IMG/VR virus record: IMGVR_UViG_3300049914_000102
Coordinates: 1 to 45,238 of that record
Length of the DNA: 45,238 nt
From: a virus
Direction: 5' to 3' (one strand)
In this document: one piece after another, positions 14,264 through 45,238 of the stretch
Numbering within the stretch: the stretch's first letter is position 1
How the letters are laid out: each line of letters opens with the position of its first letter
Notes under the pieces: generated by a model
The model's database searches: none
What the model was told of the DNA's origin: nothing
What the model saw: the letters and a program-made list of their open reading frames with translations, nothing else
Program-made: the position numbers and the translations under genes

Positions 14264-16288
14264 TTATCCCGGAAGGCCGGTGAAGAATGGTTTAATCCCA
14301 CCTACTCCCGGCATCTTTTTAATCGGGCCTATCGGTTTAAAACTGTTAATTGCATACCTAACTGAGTCCATACAATTAGAAACAAGAATTCCGCCATTGA
14401 TGGAATAACAACAAGTATCTTCTACTTCGAGGTTATAAACTGCTCTTTTGTAAGATTTTCTGGTAATCCTTTTAATCTGCGTCGTCTGGCTTTCATTTTG
14501 CAATTCTGGTGGCAATACTTTGAATGTATCCCAATATAAGTATTGTATTCTTTGCCACATTGTAAGCAATTTCTTTTTATCTTCTTTCTCTTTTGCCATG
14601 AGATTTTGCCAAGTTCTGAATGAAAGGTTAATCCTTCTTCCGAACCATGCCATTTTGAAGCCAGCACTCTGATTTTGTTTACCCATTTTCTTTGTCTCTG
14701 CCTCTTTTGGGGTGTCATATGATTGCTTAGATGAAAACGTCTTGGCACCAATTCCAGATTCCCTATTAAATTGTTGTGTGGATTCTCGTCTTTGTGGTGA
14801 ATTTGGAAATCTGTTGGAATTAACCCATTGTAAAATTCCCAAACAGCTCGATGTAAGCGTTTCCTCCCACGACTGAAGTATCTTTCGCCATGATAAAGTC
14901 TGTATTCCTTTCCATTGAATATCTGTATTTCCATAAGTAACTGATTGTATCATATCCATTGGGTAAAGTAAAGAGGCTGGACACCAATCTCCACTTTTTA
15001 ACTTGAAAGGATGTTCTCCCGAACAAAAAATCTTTCTACCGTCTATAAATTCCACTTCATATATTTGTTCTATCCCGATTTGCCTTACATCGTAGAATTT
15101 CCTAATTTTTCCATTTTCCGAATATAAATAACCTTTCTTACCAACTAAATTCTTTATCTTTATCTGACCTTTTGTTGTATCTACTAAAGTATTGCCATCT
15201 ACGCAGTGATTCATAAACTCTTGTGGCTCATTGATCGTCTTGCCTTCCTTATCGGTTATCCATAAGTAGTTGCGGTATTCTTTTATGAGAGAGACGCTCC
15301 GGGATGTGACACTAATCCTTTGTTGTTGGACATATTGAATCCCTTGTTTTACCGAATCAGGCCCCTTGACCGAGGGCATGACATTTATTCCCTTGCCCTC
15401 TAGTCTAAACAACTTAATCTCATCAATGCTCTTTGGCTCGGCACTGTCGGCAATCACTAAAGCGTGAGGTTGGTTAATCAGAACGTCGAAAATATCTCTA
15501 TTAGTCATGCCGTATTGGTAAGCAATCTCGTCTAAGATGTAGCCGCCGTTATAATAATAGATGGCAATAATGGCCGTCGGATCGTTTGTATAGCCAAAAT
15601 CAAGACCATAGCGCCTCAGTTGAGCTTCGTGGGGTATGTTCTCGAGTATTTGCCAGCCTTGGTATATTCTTGCCTCAACCACCCCTAATTGACCTAAACC
15701 ATAGACTTGCCACCACGCCACATTCCCTTTCCTCGCCTCAATCGCTTTGACGATATTTATGTCTAAGGCTTCATTGTCCTTGTAAGTCAATGTAAGGAAG
15801 TCCACATTGTCTAAATTCATTACATCGGTGTAAAACCAAAACTCCGCTTCCGGGTTCCAGTCTAACCAAATTATTTCTTTAGTCCTTACCTCTAATTGTG
15901 TATATGTTTCATAAGTCAAATGATTGGCTTCGTTGATAAAAAGAATATCTCGTCTTGCTCCCTTGACTTTTTCCCATGACTCAACACCAAAGAACTCAAT
16001 GATTGACCCCGTCTCGAAAGTGTAAATGGAATTAGTCTTTTCCCACCGATTATCTTGGAAGTAGTTATGTTCCTTCATTATGTTTAGAAAGTCTCTCATT
16101 GCACCCTTACGAAGGTGGGGCATTGATTCGGAGACGATTGAAATCACTTTGTTATCATTCTTTTGGGCATAGGTAATTAAGATAAGAAGAATAGAAACCG
16201 TTTTCGAGGCAGAAGTGCCACCAGATACTCCACGAATACGTTTACTCAGTTGTTGGAGTTTCTGAGTTGCTTGCGTTAGCTGATACAT
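14264..16288 (-). CDS. terL: Terminase large subunit with an intein
   Basis: Precursor of 674 aa. The ATPase part has a P-loop variant GGTSASKT (23-30) and Walker B/catalytic Glu DILFINEAN (114-122, E120). The nuclease part has GLDFGYTNDP (D230), VIADSAEP (D281) and the last acidic motif DSVRYA (D641). An intein of 277 residues (C362 to N638) interrupts just before that motif, so only the spliced 397-residue protein is a full nuclease. The host protein is of the Terminase_3/PBSX-like type. The start is ATG 16288 with AGAAGG seven bases upstream, overlapping the small terminase by 47 bases. Confidence 0.88.
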   Translation of the reverse strand: MYQLTQATQKLQQLSKRIRGVSGGTSASKTVSILLILITYAQKNDNKVISIVSESMPHLRKGAMRDFLNIMKEHNYFQDNRWEKTNSIYTFETGSIIEFFGVESWEKVKGARRDILFINEANHLTYETYTQLEVRTKEIIWLDWNPEAEFWFYTDVMNLDNVDFLTLTYKDNEALDINIVKAIEARKGNVAWWQVYGLGQLGVVEARIYQGWQILENIPHEAQLRRYGLDFGYTNDPTAIIAIYYYNGGYILDEIAYQYGMTNRDIFDVLINQPHALVIADSAEPKSIDEIKLFRLEGKGINVMPSVKGPDSVKQGIQYVQQQRISVTSRSVSLIKEYRNYLWITDKEGKTINEPQEFMNHCVDGNTLVDTTKGQIKIKNLVGKKGYLYSENGKIRKFYDVRQIGIEQIYEVEFIDGRKIFCSGEHPFKLKSGDWCPASLLYPMDMIQSVTYGNTDIQWKGIQTLSWRKILQSWEETLTSSCLGILQWVNSNRFPNSPQRRESTQQFNRESGIGAKTFSSKQSYDTPKEAETKKMGKQNQSAGFKMAWFGRRINLSFRTWQNLMAKEKEDKKKLLTMWQRIQYLYWDTFKVLPPELQNESQTTQIKRITRKSYKRAVYNLEVEDTCCYSINGGILVSNCMDSVRYAINSFKPIGPIKKMPGVGGIKPFFTGLPG
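14375..15205 (-). mobile_element. Intein in the terminase, with the endonuclease slot read out of frame
   Basis: Block A is CVDGNTLVDTTKGQIKIKNL, starting at the splice Cys (C362). Block B is FCSGEHPFKLKSGDW, with the conserved His. Blocks F/G read VYNLEVEDTCCYSINGGILV then SN before the C-extein Cys. The penultimate residue is Ser instead of the usual His. About 90 N-terminal and 35 C-terminal residues would form a minimal splicing domain. The roughly 150 residues between them are not an endonuclease in this frame but lie opposite an HNH gene in another frame (14422-14934). Insertion at a catalytic motif of terminase is typical of inteins. Confidence 0.85.
14422..14934 (-). CDS. HNH homing endonuclease nested in the terminase intein
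   Basis: Protein of 170 aa on the same strand as terL but in a different frame. It has an HNH_3-type core: RLHRAVWEFYNGLIP, then FQIHHKDENPHNN and GNLELVPR. Then come a basic stretch, a zinc knuckle (CLQCGKEY ... KYCHQNC) and a Lys/Arg-rich tail. It ends at 14422, within codons for intein block F. Homing endonucleases normally sit in-frame between the two intein halves; here it occupies that exact place out of frame. No ribosome site precedes ATG 14934, so expression could need internal initiation or frameshifting. Confidence 0.75.
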   Translation of the reverse strand: MEIQIFNGKEYRLYHGERYFSRGRKRLHRAVWEFYNGLIPTDFQIHHKDENPHNNLIGNLELVPRRFHLSNHMTPQKRQRQRKWVNKIRVLASKWHGSEEGLTFHSELGKISWQKRKKIKRNCLQCGKEYNTYIGIHSKYCHQNCKMKARRRRLKGLPENLTKEQFITSK

Positions 16289-16655
16289 TTTTACCTTCTA
16301 ATATTGGAATTGGCCTTCCTCCAGAAGTTAAATCAACAGCGGATTTCTCTATCATATCGTGATTAACTTTAAGAAGGAGAGCAATAATAGTAGCATTGAT
16401 TTCTTTACCTCCAAAGATTCCCGTTTTGATTAAAGCTTCCTTTTGTCTCATCTTTAATTCTTCTAAAGTGTCGGAAAACTCTGGATGAATTTTTGCCCAT
16501 TCGTAAAGTGTATCTCTAGAAATGCCTAATCTAAGCGCTATTCCTTCTATGGTTGGAATTGCCATATTTTCAGGGACAGCTTCTTCAAGGTACTTATTGA
16601 TTTCATTTATCACTTCAGGAGTATATAGTGTTGGTCTACCGCCGGGGTGTGTCAT
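16242..16655 (-). CDS. terS: Terminase small subunit
   Basis: Protein of 137 aa. N-terminal PGGRPTLYTPEVINEINKYL, then the helix-turn-helix IEGIALRLGISRDTLYEWAKIHPEFSDTL, a common signature of small terminases that recognise the packaging site. A helical oligomerisation segment (MRQKEALIKTGIFGG) and a short tail follow. Located directly upstream of terL and overlapping it. Its ribosome site (GAAG) is weak, and only 12 bases separate it from the stop of the Tad2-like gene, so it is probably cotranscribed with the early region. Confidence 0.85.
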   Translation of the reverse strand: MTHPGGRPTLYTPEVINEINKYLEEAVPENMAIPTIEGIALRLGISRDTLYEWAKIHPEFSDTLEELKMRQKEALIKTGIFGGKEINATIIALLLKVNHDMIEKSAVDLTSGGRPIPILEGKNVSANASNSETPTTE

Positions 16656-16667
16656 ATCTTCATTTAA

Positions 16668-16931
16668 TCAATTCGGATTAGTTATAGGCAAATTACAAAC
16701 AATATAATCCTCGCCCTTCAAATCGCCCTCGGAGATAATCCATTGGTAAAACTTACCATCTTCCTTGTGAAGCATTAAAAAGCCATCTTTCAAGACACCA
16801 TAGATATTGCCACTATTCCACTCTCTTTTAGTGATTGTGTTACCATCGATTATTAGTTTCATGGCCGCCGGGAAACCTAATCCGGCTTTCTCTACTCTTT
16901 GTGGTCTGGGGCTTTGTTTTAATTCTTTCAT
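16668..16931 (-). CDS. Probable Tad2-like anti-Thoeris protein (DUF2829-type)
   Basis: Protein of 87 aa. Residues 20-80 follow the DUF2829/Tad2 layout: FPAAMKLIIDG (F-x-x-A-x-x-x-I-x-x-G), then ITKREW (R36, W38), a short beta hairpin, and W64-x5-GDLKGEDYIV in place of the family's W-x-P-S-x-x-D-l-x-A-x-D-W-x-V ending. Tad2 proteins are phage-encoded sponges that bind the cyclic ADP-ribose-type signal of Thoeris defence. The assignment rests on pattern recognition; residues 1-19 are an extra tail. A strong GGAGG lies five bases before ATG 16931. An unrelated small beta protein remains possible. Confidence 0.6.
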   Translation of the reverse strand: MKELKQSPRPQRVEKAGLGFPAAMKLIIDGNTITKREWNSGNIYGVLKDGFLMLHKEDGKFYQWIISEGDLKGEDYIVCNLPITNPN

Positions 16932-16939
16932 GATCCTCC

Positions 16940-17191
16940 TTAAATTGATCTTAACATTACAAAATAACTTTTATTGCTTATAATACAAGCTCTTCTGATA
17001 TAGCCTTTAAGTAATAAACCTTTAATTGCATTAATTACTGCCGGGGCTTTGTGTTCTTGTTCTTTTGTTTTGGTCATTATTTCTTTTAATGGTATTGGTG
17101 TTTTCTCTTTGTGAACCCAATCAATAATCACATACATTATGTCTTTCTGTAATTTAGTCAGGTCGCTAATCGTTACATAAATTGTCTGCAT
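16940..17191 (-). CDS. Small winged-helix-like protein, unknown
   Basis: Protein of 83 aa. The order of elements (LTKLQKDIMYVIIDWVHKE, PIPLKEIMTKTKEQE, KAPAVINAIKGLLLKGYIRRA, then a beta strand NKSYFVMLRSI) reads like a winged helix: helix, helix, recognition helix and wing. This would suit a small DNA-binding regulator, but there is no family match I can name. It overlaps the end of the NinG-like gene by 26 bases and lacks a ribosome site, implying translational coupling. Confidence 0.5.
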   Translation of the reverse strand: MQTIYVTISDLTKLQKDIMYVIIDWVHKEKTPIPLKEIMTKTKEQEHKAPAVINAIKGLLLKGYIRRACIISNKSYFVMLRSI

Positions 17192-18363: not shown

Positions 18364-19101
18364 TCATTTCACCCACTCTCTTTTCTTGTAAGTTTTTAAA
18401 TCCTTACAAAGTTTTACAAAGTATTTTTGAATTTTGGAGGATGCCGCCGCAGGAGTCGCATGAGCCGCATCAGCCGCCGCATAAGCCGCATTAACCGCAT
18501 AAGCCGCCGCATTAGCCGCATGAGCCGCATCAGCCGCATAAGCCGCATCAGCCGCCGCATAAGCCGCATTAACCGCATAAACCGCCGCATGAGCCGCATA
18601 AACCCCCGCATAAGCCGCATTAACCGCATAAACCCCCGCATAAGCCGCCGCATGAGCCGCATCAGCCGCCGCATAAGCCGCATTAACCGCATCAGCCGCC
18701 GCCTTGCTTGGTTTTCTTAAATATCTCTTAGCCGCTTGGATTGCCTCTCTCAGTCTTTTGTCTTTGGGATATTCCTTCTCAAAAATTGGTAAAACCAACT
18801 CCGCCGAATAAATCGCCAATTTGACACTATCTTTCTTTGTCCAATTCCAAGCCTTTAAAATTCTCATTTCCGACCAAACTTGTTTATCTTTTTCTTCTAA
18901 GTGTTTTCCTTTAACTTCCACCTCAGCCAAGATTTCGCCTTGAACAAAAGAGAAGGCATCGTAAGGTTCAACCGAACAATGGAAACCTTTCTTGCACATT
19001 TCTAATTCACCCTTAAAATTCTTCCACTTGCCAAATTGCCATTTAGTTTCGCCGTGTTCCGACTTTAAATTAGTTCTAAGAAATTTATAAAGTTTAGTCA
19101 T
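18364..19101 (-). CDS. DUF7666-like protein with an alanine-rich tandem repeat
   Basis: Protein of 245 aa. The N-terminal 130 residues (KLYKFLRTNL, KWQFGKWKNFKGELEMCKKGFHCSVEP, GEILAEVEVKG) resemble the phage-associated DUF7666 type. Residues about 133-225 are a repeat of the kind AAYAADAAHAANAAYA, probably a helix or solenoid, ending in a charged helix (KIQKYFVKLCKDLKTYKKREW). Related proteins occur in many phages with variable numbers of alanine repeats; function is unknown. It starts at ATG 19101 in an ATGA overlap with the HNH gene. A 46-bp copy of this start region occurs inverted at 21422-21467. Confidence 0.65.
   Translation of the reverse strand: MTKLYKFLRTNLKSEHGETKWQFGKWKNFKGELEMCKKGFHCSVEPYDAFSFVQGEILAEVEVKGKHLEEKDKQVWSEMRILKAWNWTKKDSVKLAIYSAELVLPIFEKEYPKDKRLREAIQAAKRYLRKPSKAAADAVNAAYAAADAAHAAAYAGVYAVNAAYAGVYAAHAAVYAVNAAYAAADAAYAADAAHAANAAAYAVNAAYAAADAAHATPAAASSKIQKYFVKLCKDLKTYKKREWVK
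18436..18705 (-). repeat. 9-bp tandem repeat coding Ala-Ala-X
   Basis: On the plus strand the unit reads GCCGCATNA with occasional extra GCC triplets, about 28-30 units across 270 bp. All changes keep the coding phase (gains and losses are multiples of 3), and the variable base lies in the X codon (Tyr, His, Asp, Asn, Val). Such a tract should change length easily by slippage. Confidence 0.85.
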
Positions 19102-19134
19102 CGCATCTCCTCTTTCTTAAACTCATTGATAAAA
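19089..19134. repeat. 46-bp inverted repeat, copy A
   Basis: Covers the 3' end of the HNH gene and the start of the alanine-repeat gene. Its exact reverse complement is at 21422-21467. See the matching entry and the finding. Confidence 0.85.
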
Positions 19135-21041: not shown

Positions 21042-21481
21042 TCCTTCCACCCTAAAAACTTTCCGCAATCGGCGCAACTTTTAAACCATCTTCCGGGGTT
21101 TTTCTCCGTTTTGCTTTGAGCGAATCTAACATTTATATGTTTACAAGTGTCTTGGTTTACTTGCTCCGGCTTGGCATCCCCATTCCCCTTACCATATTCC
21201 TTGACTGCTTGGGCTTGCTTCGTGCCATATCTTTCGAGTATGTAATCGTATTCTTGAGTCGCCACTCTCATTGCCTCTCTACGACCTTCAGGAGTGTCAG
21301 CAACACAATGGACAGAGTGTTTACCATCAGTGCTTAACCAAACTTCAAAAGTATAATGAGGAGCTTGAGTATCTCCGGCTTTATCTAGGACTTCAGTTTT
21401 TTCTCTTTCTTCGTTAGTCATTTTTATCAATGAGTTTAAGAAAGAGGAGATGCGATGACTAAACTTTTTTCTTAAACTCAT
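21038..21481 (-). CDS. Small protein with C-terminal zinc knuckle; 5' end altered by an inverted repeat
   Basis: Either 147 aa from MSLRKKFSH (ATG 21481, good site GGAAAGGATTAAA) or 127 aa from MTNEEREKTE (ATG 21421). The core has a beta stretch (PHYTFEVWLSTDGKHSVHCV), a helix (EGRREAMRVATQEYDYILERYG) and a C-terminal CKHINVRF ... KSCADCGKFLGW, which suggests a C-H-x-C-x2-C zinc site. The first 20 residues of the long form are encoded by the inverted copy of another locus (21422-21467), so they are probably a recent graft. Function unknown. Confidence 0.5.
   Translation of the reverse strand: MSLRKKFSHRISSFLNSLIKMTNEEREKTEVLDKAGDTQAPHYTFEVWLSTDGKHSVHCVADTPEGRREAMRVATQEYDYILERYGTKQAQAVKEYGKGNGDAKPEQVNQDTCKHINVRFAQSKTEKNPGRWFKSCADCGKFLGWKE
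21422..21467. repeat. 46-bp inverted repeat, copy B
   Basis: Exact reverse complement of 19089-19134. This copy lies inside the 5' end of the 21038-21481 gene in antisense. It also creates a local 15-bp hairpin with AATGAGTTTAAGAAA just upstream in that gene. Confidence 0.85.
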
Positions 21482-25270: not shown

Positions 25271-25497
25271 TATGGTTTTTCTTTTATAAGTTTAGCTAAC
25301 TCCGAAGGTGTTTTCTTGGCGCTGGCAATCATATTCGCCTCTTTGTCACCGGCCACTTGTCTTAATGGCAAGTCCCATAAAAACTGTTCGGCCATTTGCT
25401 CGGTCATCGGGCCTGCAAGGAATACTCCGTCTGAAATTCCCTTGACGGTAAACTCAATAAAGTAGTCATCCGGTGACGGTTTAAGTCTTTCGCTCAT
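25270..25497 (-). CDS. Small protein, unknown
   Basis: Protein of 75 aa: SERLKPSPDDYFIEFTVKGI, then GVFLAGPMTEQMAEQFLWDLPL and a basic end. A two-strand, two-helix layout is likely. It overlaps the end of the upstream gene by 17 bases and is stop/start coupled to the downstream gene. Confidence 0.5.
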   Translation of the reverse strand: MSERLKPSPDDYFIEFTVKGISDGVFLAGPMTEQMAEQFLWDLPLRQVAGDKEANMIASAKKTPSELAKLIKEKP

Positions 25498-25795
25498 GCC
25501 GGAATCCCACCCTTTCTTTTCGGCTAACTATAAAGTTAATCATTTCTGAATTTTTAATAAAAGTAATACTCAAACCATCTTCCTCCGCCCGGAGAACTGA
25601 ATCCCTCATCCCCGCCAACTGCCTTAACTGGTCAATCGCGTTTCCCCCCATTTCTTGAGCCTCGTTTAGCTGGCCCATTAGGAATCTCTCCATCTGGAAA
25701 ATGGTTTCAAAAAACTCCTCTCTGGTTATTTTCTCCGGTTTTTTTTCCGGAGGTTCGAGGATTTCTTTTATTCTCTGTTCTTGTTCTATGCTCAT
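25481..25795 (-). CDS. First early gene: small helical protein, unknown
   Basis: Protein of 104 aa. N-terminal SIEQEQRIKEILEPPEKK, a long helix (REEFFETIFQMERFLMGQLNEAQEMGG), then a strand DGLSITFIKNSEMINFIV and a basic tail. It is the first minus-strand gene after the late/early boundary and is preceded by a 50-bp dyad hairpin and the plus-strand RNA gene, so it is likely an early gene under their control. No family recognised. Confidence 0.5.
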   Translation of the reverse strand: MSIEQEQRIKEILEPPEKKPEKITREEFFETIFQMERFLMGQLNEAQEMGGNAIDQLRQLAGMRDSVLRAEEDGLSITFIKNSEMINFIVSRKERVGFRHERKT

Positions 25796-25805
25796 AATCT
25801 TTCTA

Positions 25806-25855
25806 TAATACTTAACTTACACACAAACCCTGGTTTCTGTGATAGTTAAGTATTA
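25806..25855. promoter_or_regulatory. 50-bp dyad at the late/early boundary
   Basis: TAATACTTAACT (25806-25817) and AGTTAAGTATTA (25844-25855) are perfect 12-bp inverted arms. Inside them CACACAAACC and GGTTTCTGTG pair at 9 of 10 positions, making a near-continuous 48-base palindrome. It ends 10 bases before the ATG of the first early gene. Candidate operator, replication-associated site or mRNA hairpin masking that start; no U-run follows on the minus strand. Confidence 0.6.
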
Positions 25856-25874: not shown

Positions 25875-25902
25875 TTGACAAACTGCTAGTAAGTGATACA
25901 AT
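25875..25902 (+). promoter_or_regulatory. Plus-strand promoter for the boundary RNA
   Basis: TTGACA (25875-25880), 16 bases, TACAAT (25897-25902) with a TGA extended -10. Predicted transcript start near 25908-25910. The only convincing plus-strand promoter I found in the genome. Confidence 0.6.
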
Positions 25903-25908
25903 CTACAT

Positions 25909-25976
25909 CAGAAAGCGAAGGGACGGGCTGCAACCCGTAAATCCCATTGACTGAGATCACCCCTCGCTTTTTATTA
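25909..25976 (+). ncRNA. Candidate small structured RNA with its own terminator
   Basis: About 65 bases. An outer stem pairs 25912-25922 with 25960-25970 (AAAGCGA-A-GGG with CCC-C-TCGCTTT, one A-C mismatch) and is followed by TTTTT ATT (25968-25975), as in an intrinsic terminator. An inner hairpin pairs ACGGG 25923-25927 with CCCGT 25934-25938 (loop CTGCAA). GGGA 25920-25923 can alternatively pair with TCCC 25942-25945, giving two mutually exclusive folds. No reading frame of note. It sits antisense to the path from late into early genes and could be a regulatory sRNA, a terminator guarding the boundary, or both. Confidence 0.55.
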
Positions 25977-25989
25977 AAACTTTGTCAAG

Positions 25990-26280
25990 TCAGAACCCCG
26001 TAAGTCCGTGTTCGCCCAATAAACCCACATTCATTTCATCTATCGGTTCTTCTTGTGAAATCTTGTGCATATACTTGTCTAACCCCCTTAAAAAGCTCAA
26101 AATTAAAGCCGCAAGAATTACTCTAACTGCATCCGGCAACCAAACCCTAAATAAAGCCAAAATATTAAAAATAACCCCATCGGTTAGTAACCAAGCGTAT
26201 ATTCCTAGTAGGCCATACCTTAATGGCTCTTTAATTGCCTCCAAAAGGGCTTCTTTGTGTGCTTCGTCCATATTCCTCAC
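25990..26280 (-). CDS. Holin-like membrane protein
   Basis: Protein of 96 aa. Two hydrophobic segments (about residues 22-44, LGIYAWLLTDGVIFNILALF, and 50-66, AVRVILAALILSFL) separated by a short loop. The N-terminus is charged and the C-terminus is acidic/hydrophilic. This is the shape of a class II holin or holin-like protein. It lies within the lysis group and ends directly before the boundary element. Confidence 0.6.
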   Translation of the reverse strand: MRNMDEAHKEALLEAIKEPLRYGLLGIYAWLLTDGVIFNILALFRVWLPDAVRVILAALILSFLRGLDKYMHKISQEEPIDEMNVGLLGEHGLTGF

Positions 26281-26281
26281 C

Positions 26282-26479
26282 TCATTTCACAAGTGGTTGG
26301 GAAATTCCAAATAGGCCAAATGCCCAAATAACAACTACTAAGCAAACAATTAAGTAAATTATTCTTAACCAAAAGGGGTCTAACCCAAACTTTCCAGCCA
26401 ATGCTTTTACAATTAACCACAAGATACCTAGAACAATGCAAGCTAGTACAATACTGAGTAACGCTGAAATCGTAATCAT
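26282..26479 (-). CDS. Small two-segment membrane protein (holin/antiholin candidate)
   Basis: Protein of 65 aa, almost all membrane: ISALLSIVLACIVLGILWLI and RIIYLIVCLVVVIWAFGLF with AGKFGLDPFW as the turn. Strong GGGGGTGAG ribosome site. Together with the next gene (25990-26280) it probably forms a holin pair. Which one makes the lesion cannot be told from sequence. Confidence 0.6.
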   Translation of the reverse strand: MITISALLSIVLACIVLGILWLIVKALAGKFGLDPFWLRIIYLIVCLVVVIWAFGLFGISQPLVK

Positions 26480-26586: not shown

Positions 26587-26947
26587 TTTTCCCCCTTAGT
26601 CGTAATTTAACCCAGTCGACAAATCGACTTTTAGAAATAATAATAGTGTCTTTGCCTTTAATTTCTTTCCGCAAGTTTTCAACCGACTTGACTGCCGGTT
26701 GCATTACATCTGTCATCGCATCCTTAACCACTGCCTCTGTCTTTTTACTTAAATCATTAGTATCCCCCCGCATCATCTGAATTGTGTCACTTAACTTGCT
26801 CTGAGCCAACACGACATCGTCAATCTTAATCCGGTCATCGCCAATATCCTTTTTAATCTCGTTTGTAACTTTCTCTAAGTCGTCTATCCTCTGGCCGACC
26901 TTCCTGATTGCCTCAAGCAAAATTGTGTATTGCTTATCGTTTTTCAT
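26564..26947 (-). CDS. Coiled-coil protein in the lysis region
   Basis: 127 aa from MKNDKQYTILLEAIRKVGQR (ATGA overlap with the endolysin stop). Long heptad-containing helix to about residue 100 (RIDDLEKVTNEIKKDIGDD, KLSDTIQMMRGDTNDL, VKSVENLRKEIKGK), then a basic end (WVKLRLRGKNVKNKSS). No membrane segment. It may be a spanin-like or structural factor working with the membrane protein at 27357-27803. Confidence 0.5.
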   Translation of the reverse strand: MKNDKQYTILLEAIRKVGQRIDDLEKVTNEIKKDIGDDRIKIDDVVLAQSKLSDTIQMMRGDTNDLSKKTEAVVKDAMTDVMQPAVKSVENLRKEIKGKDTIIISKSRFVDWVKLRLRGKNVKNKSS

Positions 26948-27360
26948 ACCTTTGGGGACAACCACCCCATAACTCCTCTATAATTATGCTTTTGGTAGTG
27001 GCAAGGGGAGTTGGTGGGATAATTCTGGTCAAAGGTGATTAAATTATTAACACTTGCGGTCATACAAAGGGCTACATGGCCTGCCCAGCCTGTAACAAAG
27101 GGATAGTAGTTCCAAAAGATAATATCGCCTTTTAGGGGCACTCCAGACGGCGTATTCACTATTTTGGTAAAATGGGTATTTGAGGGGTTGAAGTTCTGAA
27201 AGACCTGTTTGGCGTACTGAACAGCAGGAAGGTCATAAGGATTAAGCCCTAAACATTCTTTTAGATATTGTCTTAATAAATCCATACACTGATAGCCCCA
27301 ATGACCATCGAAGTCGAGATATTTACCATTCCATTTGTCAAAAAAAACTTGTGTGTTCAT
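26944..27360 (-). CDS. CHAP-domain endolysin
   Basis: Protein of 138 aa. A single CHAP domain: GHWGYQCMDLLRQYL contains the catalytic Cys (C25), and PLKGDIIFWNYYP followed by GWAGHVALCM holds the His (H95). CHAP domains are cysteine amidases or endopeptidases that cut peptidoglycan. No signal peptide, so it needs the holin. It lacks any cell-wall-binding domain. Embedded between the membrane/coiled-coil genes of the lysis group. Confidence 0.82.
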   Translation of the reverse strand: MNTQVFFDKWNGKYLDFDGHWGYQCMDLLRQYLKECLGLNPYDLPAVQYAKQVFQNFNPSNTHFTKIVNTPSGVPLKGDIIFWNYYPFVTGWAGHVALCMTASVNNLITFDQNYPTNSPCHYQKHNYRGVMGWLSPKV

Positions 27361-27839: not shown

Positions 27840-30203
27840 TTATTTATACTTGTTTATAAGATCATCTCCATAAATCTTCCTTCGCTTGGCATCGGCAATA
27901 CTCTTAAAGTATTTGATTTGTTTTACCGCTTCTTCTCCACTAATTTTCCCATTTTTTAGAGCTTTCCCCAAGGCATTCTCGACTTTAGTGTAACTCGACC
28001 ATTCGGAGGTAGTTACCATTCTCTGATTACTTGGAGAGTTATTGCCACCATTGTTGACCCCAAATTCGAGAGGAACAATATGGTCTAATTTCATTTTGGG
28101 ATTATTCGCTTGGGCGGCTTTCTTAGCGGCAGTGGATTTGGCCACAGACATACGTTCAACAATAACCTTCCCTCCACTCACCTTGCTTACTTGCTCACCC
28201 TCTTTTATAACGGTAACATGATCTTTGTCCACACTAATTACCATTTGCCCTGCAAACATTTTATTAAATGCTTCGTCCGTGTTAACGTTATTTGCTTTCG
28301 CATATGTATTGATTGTTTCTATAAAACTATCATTGGTAATTATTGCACCTTCAGGAAGGTATTGGTTCATTAAATTTGAACCAGAATAGGTGTTAGTAGG
28401 TATCCCAAAGAAATCAGCAATAGTTATCGCTACTAAGTTTGCCGCTTTCGGGTTTTTCAGAGTATCTATGATATTTTCGATTCCGAGCGGAGCATACATT
28501 CCCTTTAATACACTCCCAACCGTCGGTTTATTTCCTTCTCTGGTTTGTCTATTTATTATTTCTACTAATTGGGCAGAAAATGGGGATAATTTACTCTCCG
28601 AAAAATCCTCTAATAAATCCATACTTGTCTTTGAACCAAATTTCCCAGTATTAATTTCTGAAATCTCTCCAGTCGTGCTACTTTTATACTTTCCCTCGAC
28701 TATCCTCATAGCAAGAGTTGTAAGAGAGGCCTTTTCATCAATAATAAAGCGAGTATCCCCTATCTTTATCTTTCCATAATCAGCACTTGTCGGGTCTTCT
28801 TCAACACTGTCCTTTTTCAACATTTTTGCTATTCCAAGAATAACTGCAACAAGAAGTATCTCTTGAAGCCTTGCCATTATTCCAAGTCCTCGAACATATG
28901 TACTTTTCTTCCCGGGTTGGTAAAAGAAAAACCCCTCGGCAGTTGCTACAAATTTTCTTAAAGAGAAAAATGGCGCATTGATAATATTTCCCACTGGTTC
29001 AAGTTTGCCAAGACTTCCCCTAGCAGTAAGGGAATTTACAAGTTGCCCCAAACCCGTATCGTGGACTGTTGCTAGTGTTATCTTTTGGTTAAACTTATCA
29101 CTTATCGAAAGGAATAAATCAAAAACATCGAGTCTATTTTTAAGTTGGAATCCACTAAAAGCTACTTCCGAAGCCTTGTATAACTTCCCTAATTTTACGG
29201 CCTCAAAAGTTTTGTATATTCTCCCCGATTTTAAATCTTCTGGTGTAATCTTCCCGACAATAGATTGAGGTAGATTGAGTGTCGCCTCAATAACTGATTT
29301 GGGGAAATCTTCTTCTGTTACCATAACTGCCAAATTCGCCTTTTTATACATTCCAGTAATATAGTTTGGCCTAGATACCGCATAAGCCCTTATCTCATCC
29401 CACGCTTCCTGACCTCCGATTGTCTTAACCATGTTTTGTAAAGAGTCTATAGCATTGTTCTTCCAGATATTGGCTGTCAATGCATTTGCAAGTGTCGGGA
29501 ATCCTTGATTAAGTAAGGCACTATCATCCATGGAAGCCTTACTTGCCTTTGAAGCATCTAGTGCCGAACTAACTATTTTTTTACCAAATTCTAAGGGGTG
29601 ACCAAGTTGTTCTTTGAGTGTCATGCTTGCTGCCTCTTGTTTAAGTTGGGTACTATAATTATCAAAGGCAATAACCGCTCTCCCGTATTTCATTAAGGCC
29701 TCGTTATTCGCCTTTCCTGTCTCTTTATTGTGTACAAAGTCAAACCGTTCTTTATTACTCATCTTTCCAAGAGTATCTATTTTCGCTACTTTCCCCACTT
29801 CTTCAACTGTATCGGCATATTCTACCAATTTGTCATATTGTTCTTTTGTAGGATCGATATTCAACTTCACTCTAAGAAGGTCTTTGAAAAGTTCTTTAAT
29901 CCCCGCTTTGTCGAGAGCCTTTTCAAGAGCTTGGACTTTAGATAACATATCTCTTTGTACAACTTTTGACCCTCCCAACTTTTTAATAAGATTAATGGCG
30001 GCCGTTTTTTGGTTCTTTACAAGAAGTCCTTCGTATAAACCATTTATTTTAGTCGCCGCTTCCTCACCAAGTATATTAGCAAACCACTCATGACGTTTCT
30101 CTGGACTTCGATCCGCCATCTTCTGTGGATTGCCATCCTTTTTAAGCTCCTCTAATAATTTGACTTCGCCATCGGCCGTTAAACACCATGTCATATTGGA
30201 CAC
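27840..30203 (-). CDS. Large internal virion/ejection-type protein with a C-terminal HNH-like motif
   Basis: Protein of 787 aa. Long helical body with a single hydrophobic stretch (LQEILLVAVILGIAKML, about residue 450). Near the C-terminus (about 707-735), KMKLDHIVPLEFG followed by NNSPSNQRMV is an HNH-like signature of the D-H-I-x-P-L-x-x-G ... N-N-x-x-x-N type, seen in nuclease ends of large polyvalent phage proteins. It overlaps the end of 30191-32533. I infer one of three proteins ejected with the DNA; the HNH-like end could act on host DNA or RNA at entry. Confidence 0.6.
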   Translation of the reverse strand: MSNMTWCLTADGEVKLLEELKKDGNPQKMADRSPEKRHEWFANILGEEAATKINGLYEGLLVKNQKTAAINLIKKLGGSKVVQRDMLSKVQALEKALDKAGIKELFKDLLRVKLNIDPTKEQYDKLVEYADTVEEVGKVAKIDTLGKMSNKERFDFVHNKETGKANNEALMKYGRAVIAFDNYSTQLKQEAASMTLKEQLGHPLEFGKKIVSSALDASKASKASMDDSALLNQGFPTLANALTANIWKNNAIDSLQNMVKTIGGQEAWDEIRAYAVSRPNYITGMYKKANLAVMVTEEDFPKSVIEATLNLPQSIVGKITPEDLKSGRIYKTFEAVKLGKLYKASEVAFSGFQLKNRLDVFDLFLSISDKFNQKITLATVHDTGLGQLVNSLTARGSLGKLEPVGNIINAPFFSLRKFVATAEGFFFYQPGKKSTYVRGLGIMARLQEILLVAVILGIAKMLKKDSVEEDPTSADYGKIKIGDTRFIIDEKASLTTLAMRIVEGKYKSSTTGEISEINTGKFGSKTSMDLLEDFSESKLSPFSAQLVEIINRQTREGNKPTVGSVLKGMYAPLGIENIIDTLKNPKAANLVAITIADFFGIPTNTYSGSNLMNQYLPEGAIITNDSFIETINTYAKANNVNTDEAFNKMFAGQMVISVDKDHVTVIKEGEQVSKVSGGKVIVERMSVAKSTAAKKAAQANNPKMKLDHIVPLEFGVNNGGNNSPSNQRMVTTSEWSSYTKVENALGKALKNGKISGEEAVKQIKYFKSIADAKRRKIYGDDLINKYK

Positions 30204-32533
30204 CTCACTAACTTAATAATATCGCCCCAGTCAGTTAATTTTGGGACTCTGATTTCTTTAATTTCTTTTTCGGCAATCTTATTGGTCACTTCCTCAATCG
30301 GTTTACCCCCATGAGTTTTCTTAAAAGTTGCTTCCTTAATCTGATAACGTTCATTTAGTGTTCTCGTGGGGGAATTTTTGTTTATCTCACTTAAAATACT
30401 TATCCTTTGGCCTAGGGCTGTTGCCTGAAGTGTCTCAAGTTTAGTCGCTAGACTAAAGTCATGTCTTGCAAGTTGATCCAAAGCGACATAGATAGACTCT
30501 GGAATTATGCCCTTTGGAGGTTCTACTTTGCCCTGCAAGACATCTAACGCCTCTTGTTGGTTATTTACTACATATTGGGAAGCTTTAGTAACTTGGTCGT
30601 CCTTATTCATTACATTATACGTAGATAACCCTAAGTCTTTGATTTGTTCTTCTGTCGCTTGGCCGATCACGCCCTTCATTCTTGCTTCCAACCTGCTTGC
30701 TTTTACTTTTCCTTCCCCCACTGGTAGTTGCTCTTTTGGAACACTAACTACTTTAGGTTTTATTTCTGGTGGTTTAACTCCCTCTGGGACTCCCCCCATT
30801 CCCCCCTTAATTGTTGAGCCAGAAGGACTCAAGAGCTTTGTCGAAGGCGTAGTGATGTTTCCGACAGAAGGTAACTGTCCATTTATGTTTCCCCCCTGTA
30901 AAGCGGGGTTTGATGTGGGCAAGTTGGAGGTCTTTTGTTGTGCCACATTTAAGGCACGTTGTATCTCGGAGTTTTGAAGAAGTTTTGGATTCTCTGTTAC
31001 CGCCATTTTTAGCTCTTCTCCACTTATGATTATAGGCGTTGACTTTGTCCCTATTTCGCTTCCTCCATTGGCTTTTAAGGTAGAGTTTAGAGCATCTAGC
31101 TGAGCAGTATTTAGCTTCCGCCCGTCTATTGATAATTGGTTGCCCGCATTTAATACAGTTGATGGTAGTTCATTTCCTTTCACTTTTATTCTAGCACTCC
31201 CCTTTGAAGATGTCAATAGGGGAGTATTAGGCATCTCTCCCCCTACTGGTTGAGGTTGGGAGGCTGGTTCACTTATCTTTATACTCTGTCCTTGTTGTTG
31301 GGCGGTTAAGGCGGCTTTGACAAGTTCTCTACCGTCGGGAGTATTCTGTAATGGAGTTCCGACAACTTTAGCGAGAACTTCGTCTGGAGTATATTCACCG
31401 GGAAAAATCTCGGGAGGTTGTTCAACATTCATTAATTCCCTCCCTGTCATTGATTCCCCGGGGAATTGTTTTTTTGCCCAAGCAATAAGATCGGGAATCT
31501 TGAACAAACCCGATCTACTAGAACGAACAATCTCGATATTCTGGTTAAATCGTTTTGTTTCGATTGTAGCTTCAATTATTTCATTGGGAGTGGCGTTTCG
31601 AAATCCACCCGGAATTTTATCAGGACTTATATCTCCTAACACACGTTTCCACTTAGCCTTGAACGCATTATCTGAATCCTCGGGCGAAAACCCGTAATAC
31701 TCAAGTTCTTTATAAGCCTTGTTAAGTTCCTGTTTGGTCGCTGTTCGTATCGGGTCTGGTTGCAGGTATCCGAAAATACCCCCGAGTACAAAAGCACCTG
31801 CGGCTTCTCCTTTATTAATTGGTTCGCCGGCAAGAACATTTAATCCTGTACTTATTCCTGCTCCTACCGTCCCACCCTTGAGTGCATTTAATGGGTTATA
31901 ACCCGAAGGAGGCCCTGATAAATTAACTCGTGGGGTCATCCCCGCCATCTGAAAATATATTAGGAACCCAAGCCTAAGATCGGCGGCGATCGATTTTCCA
32001 ACCCTTCCCCCTACGTATTCCTTTGGGTCAAAAAATTCCCTTAATTTAATACTTTCAGGAGAAGAAAGTGAAACTTTCTCGCCAGTAAAAAAGCCATATA
32101 TTGTTGAAATAGGAATGTCCCCGGCAATATCGACTACCTTTTGAACAGTACTTAATGCTTGATTAACTTTTTCTCCGGCTGGTGCGACTTTTTCCTGAGC
32201 CACTGGTGTTAATTTTGCCGAAGGTGTCTTTGGTTCCGAAGTAAGTTCTAACTGGGGAATGTTAAGTTTTTGAGGAGAAGTAATTAATTCTACTTTATTC
32301 CCGTTAGAAAGTTTTCCTTTAATGGTTCCTATTACATTTGAAATGGTAGAACCAATCTTTTGCCAAGCGTTCATCGGTTGACTAACCTGAGTCGGCTGGA
32401 TTGGTTGACTTACCTGAGTTGGTTGGGGAGTTGGGGTTGTTTTTGTTATTATCGGGGCAATAACTCCTGACCTTCTAACTGGAGAAGTTGTTGTTGAGGT
32501 TTGACCGTTGATAATAGGTGCTATTACTGTCAT
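30191..32533 (-). CDS. Large internal virion/ejection-type protein
   Basis: Protein of 780 aa. The first 150 residues are Pro/Thr/Gln-rich (TPTPQPTQVSQPIQPTQVS). The middle has Gly/Ala-rich hydrophobic stretches (LKGGTVGAGISTGLNVLAG, AAGAFVLGGIFGYL) that could insert into membranes, followed by TKQELNKAYKELEYYGFSPE, faintly like a J-domain helix pair without HPD. The C-terminal 170 residues (SRLEARMKGVIG, ALDVLQGKVEPPKGIIPESI, DFSLATKLETLQATALGQRIS) resemble domains of ejected phage proteins. The order of three big proteins between adaptor and lysis genes matches podovirus-like ejection proteins. Confidence 0.6.
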   Translation of the reverse strand: MTVIAPIINGQTSTTTSPVRRSGVIAPIITKTTPTPQPTQVSQPIQPTQVSQPMNAWQKIGSTISNVIGTIKGKLSNGNKVELITSPQKLNIPQLELTSEPKTPSAKLTPVAQEKVAPAGEKVNQALSTVQKVVDIAGDIPISTIYGFFTGEKVSLSSPESIKLREFFDPKEYVGGRVGKSIAADLRLGFLIYFQMAGMTPRVNLSGPPSGYNPLNALKGGTVGAGISTGLNVLAGEPINKGEAAGAFVLGGIFGYLQPDPIRTATKQELNKAYKELEYYGFSPEDSDNAFKAKWKRVLGDISPDKIPGGFRNATPNEIIEATIETKRFNQNIEIVRSSRSGLFKIPDLIAWAKKQFPGESMTGRELMNVEQPPEIFPGEYTPDEVLAKVVGTPLQNTPDGRELVKAALTAQQQGQSIKISEPASQPQPVGGEMPNTPLLTSSKGSARIKVKGNELPSTVLNAGNQLSIDGRKLNTAQLDALNSTLKANGGSEIGTKSTPIIISGEELKMAVTENPKLLQNSEIQRALNVAQQKTSNLPTSNPALQGGNINGQLPSVGNITTPSTKLLSPSGSTIKGGMGGVPEGVKPPEIKPKVVSVPKEQLPVGEGKVKASRLEARMKGVIGQATEEQIKDLGLSTYNVMNKDDQVTKASQYVVNNQQEALDVLQGKVEPPKGIIPESIYVALDQLARHDFSLATKLETLQATALGQRISILSEINKNSPTRTLNERYQIKEATFKKTHGGKPIEEVTNKIAEKEIKEIRVPKLTDWGDIIKLVRCPI

Positions 32534-34526: not shown

Positions 34527-35183
34527 TTATGGCGGTGCTGACACCGACGGGCTTAATGATATTGACACACTTGGACTCACGCTTGGGCTTAAAGAAATGC
34601 TGACGCTTGGAGAATTAGAAACCGATACCGATGGTGACACGCTCGGACTCGCACTCTTACTCACCGAAGGTGATTTAGAAACCGAAGTTGAGGGCGAAAC
34701 ACTGGGACTTTGTAACTGAATATCAGTAACAACTCCATTTGTTATCACAATTACCTGCCCATCTGCTGTCTGGAAGGCTCCGTTTACAGCACTATGCTCC
34801 CAAAGGTTCGTCGTATCAAATATCAAGTCATCCCCCGTTCCATATTTAACATCCACATAGGGAACACTTAGTTGTATTCCGTATAAACCTGAACCCAAAT
34901 CTCCTAACACAATTCTATCGACTATCCCGTCATTTATAATCAATCTTTTGTTAGTCGCATCTATACTTAACCATTCCCCAAAGTTGAAAGTCCCAGTTAT
35001 TGTTTGAACGGGGTTATCTGAAGTAAGTAATTTTGAATTTCTATCAAATAAAGAAATATCCTTATCGGGAATAACAGGTGGAGAATAAGTATCGGGGGGA
35101 TTTACTTCCGTTGGCTGATTAATTGGCATCCCTTCGGTTGGAAGGGTGGTATCGTTTAGAATTGGTGATATATATGTTGGCAT
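34527..35183 (-). CDS. Tail protein with a short SPSVS tract
   Basis: Protein of 218 aa. Residues 1-155 form a beta-rich domain (TGTFNFGEWLSIDATNKRLI, LSVPYVDVKYGTGDDLIFD, GQVIVITNGVVTDIQL). The last 60 residues are the alternating-serine tract (SPSVSPSTSVSKSPSVSKS, ending PSVSAPP). Probably a fibre or baseplate attachment protein. The tract shares its pattern with 8512-9513 and 37736-41953. Confidence 0.6.
   Translation of the reverse strand: MPTYISPILNDTTLPTEGMPINQPTEVNPPDTYSPPVIPDKDISLFDRNSKLLTSDNPVQTITGTFNFGEWLSIDATNKRLIINDGIVDRIVLGDLGSGLYGIQLSVPYVDVKYGTGDDLIFDTTNLWEHSAVNGAFQTADGQVIVITNGVVTDIQLQSPSVSPSTSVSKSPSVSKSASPSVSPSVSVSNSPSVSISLSPSVSPSVSISLSPSVSAPP
34530..34712 (-). repeat. SPSVS-coding tandem repeat (copy set 2)
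   Basis: Short version, about 60 codons, of the (Ser-X)n repeat. Includes Lys and Asn in X positions (SKSPSVSKS, SNSPS), which the long tract in the giant gene uses only rarely. Confidence 0.8.
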
Positions 35184-37735: not shown

Positions 37736-40700
37736 TTATTTATATGTTTTGTATTTGTTAGCCCAAACCGTTGGTTTTGCAGAATACTTATTGGTAAAAG
37801 TGTTCCCCACATTTGAATATTTATTTACATAAACTGTTCCCTTAAACTCATATTTATCTGTCCAAATAGGGGCTGAAGGTGAAGGACTAATACTGGCACT
37901 CGGGGAAAGAGATTCCGAAACGGATGGTGAGATTGAAGGACTAAGACTTTCAGATACCGAGGGAGATACCGAAGGGCTAATAGAGGGCGATAAACTTACC
38001 GAGGCCGAGGGAGAAATTGAAAGGGAAAGCGATGGCGAAAGACTAACTGAGATACTTGGACTTACCGACGGACTAACGGAAGGGCTTAAACTTACCGAGA
38101 CCGAAGGCGAGAGAGAAACACTAACCGATGGAGATACTGATGGTGAAAGGGAAAGTGACACACTCGGGCTAAGAGATACTGAGACGGATGGACTAATACT
38201 AACACTTACAGAAGGTGAAACGCTCGGAGAAATGCTAGGACTTAGGGAAACACTAACGCTTGGTGATACGGAAGGCGACAAGGAAACAGAGATAGATGGA
38301 CTGACGCTGGGCGAGAGACTAATTGATACACTTGGACTTAATGATACCGAGACGCTTGGGGATACGCTGGGGCTAAGAGAAATAGATACACTCGGACTAA
38401 CAGATGGCGACAAACTGATAGAGACTGAAGGACTGACGCTGGGCGATAGAGAAATTGAGACACTAGGGGAAACAGAGAGCGATAGACTTATACTAACCGA
38501 AGGTGAAAGACTAACGCTGACACTTGGACTTAACGAGATTGAGACCGAGGGGCTAACACTGGGCGACAATGAAATACTGACTGATGGGGAAACGGAAGGC
38601 GATAAACTTTTACTAACACTAGGACTTATCGAGGGAGAAAGAGAAATGGACACCGATGGACTAAGACTGATAGAAACACTCGGCGAGACCGAGGGACTCA
38701 GAGAAACCGAGACTGAGGGTGAGACCGAGGGAGAAAGAGACTTACTTACACTCGGACTCAAACTAATAGACACGCTCGGAGAAACGGACGGACTTAGAGA
38801 GATTGAAACTGATGGCGAAACGCTTGGAGACAATGAAATCGACACTGACGGGCTTACCGAAGGACTTAGACTAACCGATACGCTTGGACTTAATGATAGC
38901 GAAACACTTGGAGATACACTGGGACTCAGAGAAATAGAAATACTGGGTGATACGCTCGGAGACAATGAAATACTGACACTGGGCGAAAGTGAAATCGAAA
39001 CACTTGGTGAAATAGATGGAGAAAGGGAAATGCTAACGCTCGGGCTGACTGAAGGGCTAAGACTAATAGACACCGAAGGGCTGACGGAAGGAGAGAGACT
39101 CTCAGACACACTAGGTGAAAGGGAAACCGATACCGACGGACTTACTGACGGCGATAAACTAATACTCACGCTCGGACTCACCGAAGGTGACAGACTCTCG
39201 CTAACCGACGGAGACAACGACTCACTTACACTCGGTGAAAGGCTAATCGAGACTGAAGGACTTAATGAGATAGAAACACTTGGGGAAACACTTGGAGACA
39301 AACTGACTGATCCCCCTGCACTACAAGGTTCTTCCGCTCCCACCCCATAAAAAGTATCTGGAGCATTTTGGTTGTTGTATTCGCAAGTAACCCAACCGGC
39401 ACTTCTAGCGTCATTTACAATTCGCATCTCATCCATCAAGCCACTATTGGCGGCACCTTCTTGTGGGAATTTGGCTATAGAAACGCCTAGGGTTGGAGTA
39501 TTTACGTTTCCTTTGTCCCAAGCGGCGTTATAACCATCGTTATCCCCATTAAAGTATACGATTGCGCTTGTCGCAGTTGAATCATAAGTCATCTGGAGGT
39601 GAACCCACTCTCCAGTGGAAACATCCGTTGCTCCCGCTACTTCTGAACCATAGTCGTTTATCATGATACGAGCCTTATTATTTTCTACCCGCCAGTGATA
39701 GGCGACAGGAGTTGGTACTCTCCAATCCCATTTATTTATCAATATATTCTGCCCAGAGGTTTTTGTGCTTTGATACCAAGCCGAAAGAGTAAGTTTCGCC
39801 ATCCCGTCTAAATTGTCATTATCGGGAACTAAAATATAGCCGGGAGTGGAGTAATCAACCCCGTTCCCTAACATTCCAGCAGCGATAGTCGCGCTAGTGC
39901 TAGTACCGTGGTTAGCATTACCAGAGGAATCAACTACTTCGTCTTCAACCCCACTATATGAAGCCTCAGCGTGATGAAACACTAGCACAAAGCCATTCGA
40001 CCAAACCGCGTTCCTTCCGAACTCAGCGTCTACCGCATAGTCTGAAGCTCCGGCATTTCCATAATATATATAGAAGTCGGTGTCGGCATCCTTATCCAAA
40101 TCTCCTTTAAACCACAACTCTCCCGTATCAGAAGCGGCGGTGTAAGAAACAACCTCTCTTGGGACTTCAGTTTCCCCATCAGAAGTAGTTACCCGAATAT
40201 CCCTAGCGTCAGTCTGGTTGCAATGGGTATGAAATCCTGCTGGTAGATCGGATAAATCCACATAAACAGGGAAAGCAGACTGGTCTGCACCACCAACTAA
40301 GTCTTTGTCAACCGTTATCTTGACCCGGTAAGCCCAATCACAAGTACCGCCATACCAGCCCGAAATCGCCTCAGAGGCCGAAGGGCTAAGACTAACACTC
40401 ACACTAGGAGAAGCAGAGACCGAGGGTGATAATGATTCGCTTACGGAGGGGGAAAGAGAAACGCTAAGCGATTCGGAAACACTTGGGCTTAAAGATATAC
40501 TAACACTCGGTGAAAGGCTAACGCTTCCACCGCCTACAGTTGTGTCATATTTGACAATGACAATCCCTGAACCGCCACTCCCTGCAGTAGAAGTTATCCA
40601 AATTCCTCCACCTCCTCCACCAGTATTATCAACTCCAGCACCACCATTTGAAGGGTGAACTCCGCCTACTCCACCCCCACCTTTTCCTCCTGCGGCCTCG

Positions 40701-41953
40701 ATAGTAATAGAAGCTCCTCCACCACCCCCAGCAATATAATGAACGCCACCTACATCTACACCAGCTTCGGCAACAATTAATAAGTCAGAATAGTCACTTG
40801 TTCCGTCTCCCCCAATCCCTCCGTTATTTGCTGATGGTCCAACATGGCCTTCTTCTCCCGCTCCTCCACCACCTCCACCACCTTGATGGTCTGGTTGTGT
40901 ATCTCCACCATCATATCCTTGTCCTGGTACTCCTGCTCCTCCTGACTGTGGGTAATCTCCCCCACCACCCCCAGAACCACCTGGCCTCCCGTCACCGTCA
41001 CCTCCACCACCTCCACCACCTGTCGCTGATACTGTCCCGAAGGATGAAGCGACGCCATCATCACCGGGGTCAGATGCTCCACCAGAACCACCAGTTCCGC
41101 CACCACCGACAACTACATCAACACCAGTATCTGCAGTAACAGCAACTGTAGCATTGTGAACAAGCCCACCTGCTCCTCCCCCACCGCCAGCATAACATCC
41201 TCCACCACCTCCACCAGCAACTACTAAAACTTCTACATTACCGCTAAAATCAGGAGTAAAAGTACCATCAGAAGTAAACTTATGAACTTTATAGTCCCCG
41301 TCTGTATAAATGTTGTTTCCACCTGTTGCTGAACGTTCCTCTGCACCAGAAGTCGAAGGACTAAGACTGATGCTTATACTAGGAGAAACAGATGGAGATA
41401 ACGATTCGCTTATGGACGGTGAGACCGAAGGTGACAAACTAATGCTCACTGAAGGACTAACACTAACTGAAGCAATGTCATCTCTGTAGACATAGAAACA
41501 CCTATCGGCAACAGTATCTGAAGTCCAGCCATCATCCCATTCACAGTGATTTCCAGGATGAGACGGCGAAGTTGCATCATAATACCATGTGATATACCCA
41601 CCAGACTGAACTAAAACCAAAACATAATAGTTTCCGTTCGTAAGAACTATTTTGTTTGCTCCAGTGAAAGTGAAAGTTATTAGTTCAGGATCAACTCCGA
41701 TTATCGAACTATCTACTATCCCAGATGTAGCCAATACGTCCCCAGTAGGAATGCTATCCGTTCCGTAGGCAGTTGCGTGTGTTTCGGCATATATTCGTAC
41801 TACTAATGATTCTGATACTTCACCGTCATTCGCTAAATAGAGTTTTATACTATTAAGAGTCCCTCCATCTCCGGTAAAAGAACACCCTATCAGGGCACTA
41901 GCACCACTACCTGTTGCATTACTTTCACTATAACTATCACAAATCACGCTCAT
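37736..41953 (-). CDS. Giant serine-rich-repeat tail adhesin
   Basis: Protein of 1405 aa, the largest in the genome. In order: a beta-sandwich domain (1 to about 160, GGTLNSIKLYLANDGEVSES); a short SPSVS linker; a Gly-rich domain (about 215-480, VLVVAGGGGGGCYAGG); an SPSVS linker; a DUF2341-like part (YRVKITVDKDLVGG) joined to a LamG/concanavalin-like domain (ARIMINDYGSEVAGATD); a 470-residue alternating-serine tract (to about 1355); and a C-terminal NKY-repeat anchor (TFTNKYSAKPTVWANKYKTYK). The carbohydrate-binding-type domains suggest host-surface binding; the Ser tract is a stalk and a likely glycan carrier. Ribosome site GGAGGGC. Confidence 0.78.
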   Translation of the reverse strand: MSVICDSYSESNATGSGASALIGCSFTGDGGTLNSIKLYLANDGEVSESLVVRIYAETHATAYGTDSIPTGDVLATSGIVDSSIIGVDPELITFTFTGANKIVLTNGNYYVLVLVQSGGYITWYYDATSPSHPGNHCEWDDGWTSDTVADRCFYVYRDDIASVSVSPSVSISLSPSVSPSISESLSPSVSPSISISLSPSTSGAEERSATGGNNIYTDGDYKVHKFTSDGTFTPDFSGNVEVLVVAGGGGGGCYAGGGGGAGGLVHNATVAVTADTGVDVVVGGGGTGGSGGASDPGDDGVASSFGTVSATGGGGGGGDGDGRPGGSGGGGGDYPQSGGAGVPGQGYDGGDTQPDHQGGGGGGGAGEEGHVGPSANNGGIGGDGTSDYSDLLIVAEAGVDVGGVHYIAGGGGGASITIEAAGGKGGGGVGGVHPSNGGAGVDNTGGGGGGIWITSTAGSGGSGIVIVKYDTTVGGGSVSLSPSVSISLSPSVSESLSVSLSPSVSESLSPSVSASPSVSVSLSPSASEAISGWYGGTCDWAYRVKITVDKDLVGGADQSAFPVYVDLSDLPAGFHTHCNQTDARDIRVTTSDGETEVPREVVSYTAASDTGELWFKGDLDKDADTDFYIYYGNAGASDYAVDAEFGRNAVWSNGFVLVFHHAEASYSGVEDEVVDSSGNANHGTSTSATIAAGMLGNGVDYSTPGYILVPDNDNLDGMAKLTLSAWYQSTKTSGQNILINKWDWRVPTPVAYHWRVENNKARIMINDYGSEVAGATDVSTGEWVHLQMTYDSTATSAIVYFNGDNDGYNAAWDKGNVNTPTLGVSIAKFPQEGAANSGLMDEMRIVNDARSAGWVTCEYNNQNAPDTFYGVGAEEPCSAGGSVSLSPSVSPSVSISLSPSVSISLSPSVSESLSPSVSESLSPSVSPSVSISLSPSVSPSVSVSLSPSVSESLSPSVSPSVSISLSPSVSPSVSISLSPSISPSVSISLSPSVSISLSPSVSPSISISLSPSVSPSVSLSLSPSVSVSLSPSVSPSVSISLSPSVSPSVSISLSPSVSPSVSISLSPSVSKSLSPSVSPSVSVSLSPSVSPSVSISLSPSVSISLSPSISPSVSKSLSPSVSPSVSISLSPSVSPSVSISLSPSVSVSLSPSVSISLSLSVSPSVSISLSPSVSPSVSISLSPSVSPSVSISLSPSVSPSVSVSLSPSVSISLSPSVSPSISVSLSPSVSPSVSVSLSPSISPSVSPSVSVSISPSVSVSLSPSVSLSLSPSVSPSVSVSLSPSVSVSLSPSVSPSVSPSISVSLSPSLSLSISPSASVSLSPSISPSVSPSVSESLSPSISPSVSESLSPSASISPSPSAPIWTDKYEFKGTVYVNKYSNVGNTFTNKYSAKPTVWANKYKTYK
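37871..39310 (-). repeat. SPSVS-coding tandem repeat (copy set 3, about 1.4 kb)
   Basis: Longest of the three tracts: about 470 codons, with Ser at almost every second position and short sub-blocks SPSVSPSVSISL or SPSVSVSL repeated dozens of times. Synonymous codons vary from unit to unit. Two smaller pieces occur in the same gene near 40375-40535 and 41345-41475. Confidence 0.88.
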
Positions 41954-45223: not shown

Positions 45224-45238
45224 ACCCCCACACTTTAT
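45187..45238. repeat. Terminal overlap, right copy
   Basis: Repeats 1-52 as described there. The C/G-rich errors here corrupt the Rossmann loop coding (WVGK becomes WGGK). Confidence 0.85.

Follow-up and report, generated by a model that had tools for sequence, protein, structure and literature searches.

Setting and architecture of the unit

The locus studied here raises the question of why a phage whose genes run in one direction would carry a good promoter, followed at once by a compactly folding sequence, on the opposite strand. It lies in a 45,238-nt record from an uncultured phage (IMG/VR IMGVR_UViG_3300049914_000102, positions 1-45,238), the whole of which is referred to here as the window. 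An earlier sequence-only reading of this DNA had placed every protein gene on the minus strand, which holds for the large open reading frames (ORFs) and for all assigned genes. It had also described a plus-strand promoter with an extended -10 element and, directly behind it, a compact RNA with an outer stem, an inner hairpin, and a U-run, and our analysis confirmed both. We conclude that the locus very probably harbors a real, undescribed regulatory RNA gene with a predicted transcript of ∼65 nt. The features used in the argument are the following.

9576-10688, minus strand: gene for the major head protein
14264-16288, minus strand: gene for the terminase large subunit
16242-16655, minus strand: gene for the terminase small subunit
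25481-25795, minus strand: gene for a 104-aa protein, the first gene after the unit (downstream neighbor)
25875-25902, plus strand: σ70-type promoter TTGACA-16-TACAAT with extended -10, 11 of 12 consensus letters (-35 TTGACA at 25875-25880, TG at 25894-25895, -10 TACAAT at 25897-25902)
25909-25974, plus strand: predicted small RNA of ∼65 nt, its start placed ∼7 nt past the -10 element and its end at the U-tract
25912-25922, plus strand: 5' arm of the outer stem P1, pairing with 25960-25970 (10 pairs, one A.C mismatch)
25923-25938, plus strand: hairpin A, stacked directly on P1, with the hexaloop CUGCAA at 25928-25933
25941-25957, plus strand: hairpin B (3 bp, a C.A mismatch, 2 bp, and a 5-nt loop)
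25960-25970, plus strand: 3' arm of P1
25968-25975, plus strand: U-tract UUUUUAUU, which makes P1 an intrinsic-terminator-like end for a plus-strand transcript
25990-26280, minus strand: gene for a 96-aa holin-like membrane protein (membrane character read from sequence), the last gene before the unit
25990-26479, minus strand: two small holin-like membrane proteins, upstream of the unit
26944-27360, minus strand: endolysin gene, upstream of the unit

The unit occupies the plus strand of the 194 bases between the holin gene and the gene at 25481-25795, and the predicted RNA stops 15 nt short of the holin stop at 25990, overlapping neither gene. Family searches gave no convincing match for the 96-aa holin-like protein and assigned no function to the 104-aa protein. 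As for the idea that this site marks a late/early boundary, the lysis genes do lie upstream, but "early" is a loose label, since the first good minus-strand promoter is found 3.4 kb further on (22530-22502). This sense-strand promoter precedes a small helix-turn-helix gene and has an apparently orthologous counterpart in the related phage L009 (4091-4119). An imperfect 24-nt inverted repeat (88%, 2 nt between the arms; 25806-25855) lies in the interval between the unit's promoter and the gene at 25481-25795; it has no second copy in the window, is absent at the corresponding junctions of the relatives L002 and L009, and is possibly an operator or a leader hairpin.

With the TG included, the plus-strand promoter reaches a total score of 12, and sites scoring this high are expected by chance 0.1 times across both strands of the window. 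There are two of them, the second one inside a gene for a 780-aa protein on the minus strand (30191-32533), and the promoter score alone is therefore no proof. Downstream of the promoter, the sequence at 25909-25977 is predicted to fold into a compact three-way junction with a U-tract end at -21.8 kcal/mol (z -3.6), a stability matched by none of 200 shuffled sequences. The stability of the interior by itself is ordinary (35 to 46% of interior shuffles are as stable), and the unpaired stretches of the RNA are short. A second pairing, GGGA/UCCC, which had been suggested to break the outer stem, does exist but is 3.1 kcal/mol less stable (-16.0 versus -19.1), and the letters needed to form it are missing from the relatives. 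A GGGA/UCCC switch was rejected on these two grounds.

Recurrence of the unit in related phages

Related phage contigs were collected by terminase searches of IMG/VR. Two of them carry an antisense unit made up of a promoter with 11 of 12 consensus letters, a three-way junction, and a U-tract at the junction between the holin gene and the next gene: L002 (a single contig that also appears under the identifiers L006, L090, and L095), whose terminase is 82% identical to that of the window without its intein-like part, and L009 (likewise also L091 and L092), whose terminase is 69% identical to that of L002. Their promoters are TTGACA-17-TATCAT with TG (minus strand, 2001-1973) and TTGACA-17-TATACT (minus strand, 1087-1059), respectively, and the gap between promoter and RNA is 6 to 8 nt. 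In both relatives, the slot of the 104-aa protein is taken by a metallophosphoesterase-like gene, whose start the -35 element overlaps or abuts. The RNA of L002 overlaps a stop codon; otherwise, there is no overlap with coding sequence. In the window, L002, and L009, only one antisense site per genome scores 11 or higher, and it is always the promoter of this unit, while all further sites of that score lie on the sense strand. The recurrence of promoter, junction, U-tract, and position supports the earlier proposal of an independent sRNA gene with its own promoter and a putative terminator of its own.

A descriptor combining promoter, stem, and U-tract, run over 986 kb from 87 loci, gave 8 matches compared with 2 in shuffled sequence. 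Full promoters were found in the units of the window, L002, and L009, which also had the top combined scores, all of them antisense at the junction between holin and next gene. With model R2, these three members alone reached a significant score in 981 kb, and the records of 25 other relatives gave no match. The same model gave no match in ∼1,000 bacterial genomes around metagenome-assembled genomes (MAGs) with related terminases, a search that used stricter filters and no positive control. A related terminase was located in a MAG titled Candidatus Woesebacteria.

Other searches were negative as well. Within IMG/VR, neither the exact RNA core pattern nor holin and endolysin as single-protein queries retrieved relatives. 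No new boundary loci came from scans with a zinc-ribbon protein, the metallophosphoesterase, and a small early protein, and the annotated phage collection contained no DNA similarity. The window, L002, L003, and L004 had no Rfam match at the gathering score, relaxed scans giving only matches far below it, none of them credible. Of the junctions inspected in other relatives, that of L015 has no gap, and that of L012 has a longer, different leader in place of a comparable unit. In the L012 phage (L094, G006), this leader lies in the lysis/early interval, at ∼16,682-17,000 of the reverse complement, behind a sense promoter TTGACA-17-TAATAT. No comparable unit is present at the L003 junction either, where the antisense side has just a weak promoter besides a simple stem with U8. 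As far as these collections show, the unit is confined to a narrow clade with three known members, all from uncultured phages.

Conservation of the fold

The three RNAs are only 51 to 58% identical in pairwise comparisons. Because MAFFT alignments misplaced the hairpins of the window sequence, a structure alignment with N placeholders (A12) was made by hand. In A12, 22 pairs are intact in every cell and 14 of them are changed on both sides, counts that lean towards structure given the manual alignment and come from three sequences. Compensatory stem changes, whose absence from relatives had been named beforehand as evidence against the RNA, are thus present. None of 500 shuffles reached this level of pairing, and controls with slid partners were 26 to 48% paired. 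When L002 and L009 were aligned without regard to structure, the outer stem showed 4 double changes, which 24 of 500 shuffles equaled for these two sequences. A covariance model built from the window alone matched the antisense elements of L002 (10.9 bits) and L009 (9.1 bits) from end to end, matches that are weak on their own (E values of 0.6 and 1.8 in 17 kb).

The interior geometry is also retained: with the outer stem fixed and the interior shuffled, a hexaloop hairpin coming first, with 0 nt between it and the stem, recurred in only 0.18%, 0.58%, and 0.45% of trials. Scanning the whole genome for stable three-way junctions turns up mostly coding sequence and is uninformative when taken alone. 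The letters kept in all three RNAs are the hairpin A loop, C-NGCN-A, and the C.A mismatch of hairpin B. The loop cores (UGCA, UGCA, and GGCC) are all palindromic, which, with three sequences, is only a hint at loop-loop pairing. Taken together, the comparison suggests an sRNA gene kept under selection despite the turnover of its sequence.

Proposed role of the RNA

We give a probability of roughly 0.55 to the reading in which this small-RNA gene acts in cis, in the manner of λ OOP, where the late lysis genes give way to the next gene block. The strong σ70-type promoter would drive a transcript of ∼65 nt against all other genes, and the outer stem and U-tract would end it just before the holin gene, so that a convergent transcription unit would separate the lysis genes from the block behind them. 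The RNA would be perfectly complementary to the junction in any lysis mRNA that reads through, and, with the palindromic loop lying in a hairpin on both strands, pairing could begin between the loops. The resulting duplex, a target for RNase III, might then, together with convergent RNA polymerase, keep lysis transcripts out of the genes behind. A cis role appears likeliest because of the fixed position, the built-in complementarity, the lack of a trans target within the phage, and the precedent of pO/OOP. Since the RNA reaches neither the holin gene nor the next gene, it would not be an antisense RNA against a coding region.

This mechanism is inferred, and the nearest functional analogue is λ pO/OOP. 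In λ, the pO promoter drives a short RNA that lies between genes, opposes the main operon, and ends at its own terminator; OOP acts via RNase III on the cII mRNA, and the pO promoter itself affects transcription reaching past pO (PMC3985674, PMC12197685). At the sequence level, the unit described here shares with it a dedicated promoter that faces against the operon, a short predicted transcript, and a predicted terminator. The pO promoter lies close to O, and the -35 elements of L002 and L009 are similarly placed with respect to the start of the next gene. In contrast to OOP, which pairs with the coding cII mRNA, the RNA here overlaps no coding sequence apart from the stop codon in L002, and the next gene is no recognized replication initiator (the 104-aa protein in the window and a metallophosphoesterase-like protein in L002 and L009). 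The three-way junction and its loop are also not known from OOP, the sequences having been compared through the Rfam scan only. Other small phage RNAs are antisense to phage transcripts, such as P22 sar, c4 of P1/P7, and PAK_P4as15 at an endolysin gene (PMC12197685). Their targets are coding or regulatory regions, whereas the RNA here spans an intergenic junction.

The main rival to the cis reading is likewise an sRNA gene, but one whose RNA would have host or phage mRNAs as trans targets or a protein as its partner, the intergenic position being just a convenient empty slot. We regard this as possible, though clearly the less probable of the two. Its weight comes from the conserved loop and mismatch, which point to an importance of the RNA itself: the C-NGCN-A hexaloop and the C.A mismatch of hairpin B are invariant while the stems around them change, a hint at a role beyond cis interference. 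The three-way junction is moreover more elaborate than a terminator requires, and the lack of coding overlap contrasts with the usual cis-antisense RNAs. However, exact complementarity to other sites in the phage does not exceed shuffled expectation, and the short unpaired stretches likewise speak against such a role.

Strand assignment and further alternatives

It is unlikely that the structure instead serves the sense (minus) strand, where its three-way junction would form the 3' end of the late lysis mRNA or signal its processing and the plus-strand promoter would be incidental. The minus strand of the window does fold much better than the plus strand (-30.0 versus -21.7), the conserved C.A positions become U.G pairs on the sense strand, and under the union structure 2 of 66 cells are broken on the sense strand compared with 7 of 66 on the antisense strand. 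Given that the sense strand folds too, and with fewer broken cells, pairing alone cannot choose the strand, and in L002 and L009 both strands fold about equally well. The better U-tract, however, is on the antisense-RNA side in all three phages (UUUUUAUU, UUUAUUUAUUUU, and UUUUUUUAG versus UUUCUGAUG, UUUAUAGUG, and UUUAUUAUGG), and a sense-strand function would leave unexplained an antisense promoter with 11 of 12 consensus letters that stands at a near-equal offset in each of three genomes and is the only one of its quality on its strand. Promoter and predicted terminator together decide the choice of strand in favor of the antisense RNA (plus strand in the window). A function on the sense strand, considered at first, was given up in view of the conserved antisense promoter and side of the U-tract.

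The palindromic core of the hexaloop would also be compatible with a self-assembling structural or protein-binding RNA that forms kissing homodimers or larger assemblies in a task other than antisense regulation, which we consider quite improbable. pRNA, GOLLD, and ROOL are oligomeric RNAs, and that of phage φ29, encoded by the phage, is a three-way-junction RNA with intermolecular loop pairing. The RNA here shares the three-way junction with φ29 pRNA, and its palindromic loop cores could pair loop to loop, but it is about half the size and has no Rfam match. A phage with a two-part terminase, such as this one, would not be expected to have a packaging RNA; the missing Rfam match and the presence of both terminase subunits speak against a φ29-type pRNA. 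Finally, a reading without a dedicated RNA, in which an intrinsic terminator works in both directions and the promoter beside it arose by chance, has hardly any credibility: terminators are common at operon ends and the L003 junction has a simple stem, U8, and only a weak promoter, but the promoter is kept in three genomes at nearly equal spacing and the interior geometry is kept with a chance of 0.2 to 0.6% each.

The unit matters in that small RNAs have hardly been mapped in uncultured phages. Its fold and loop motif are without an Rfam match at the gathering threshold, and promoter, fold, loop, and mismatch form a concrete, testable unit for how phage genomes with a single gene direction may part lysis transcripts from the next gene block. 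The covariance model can be used to find the unit in other phages.

Additional features of the window and its relatives

The terminase large-subunit gene contains an insertion of ∼280 residues after NHCVDGNTL, ending in VSNC, which is absent from L002 to L004 and looks like an intein. A perfect 46-nt inverted repeat has its arms 2,287 nt apart (19089-19134 and 21422-21467). Related short repeats occur in several large genes (8576-9153, 34542-34704, 37919-39325, and 40379-41473) and resemble SPSVS-type protein repeats of the relatives. In L002, a 188-nt intergenic stretch (3870-4057) has many paired motifs (GGGGTGTAAGTCCCC and others) and no Rfam match.

In the loci L039, L057, L062, L075, L085, L087, and L089, the terminase strand has, upstream of the terminase, large stretches that contain no standard-code ORFs; these may reflect stop codon reassignment or genes lying on the opposite strand. 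Although the record is listed as linear, the two ends of the window (1-52 and 45187-45238) have 22 identical bases in common (52 nt at 85%); either the gene order is circularly permuted, as it appears to be, or the ends are copies of a repeated tail gene.
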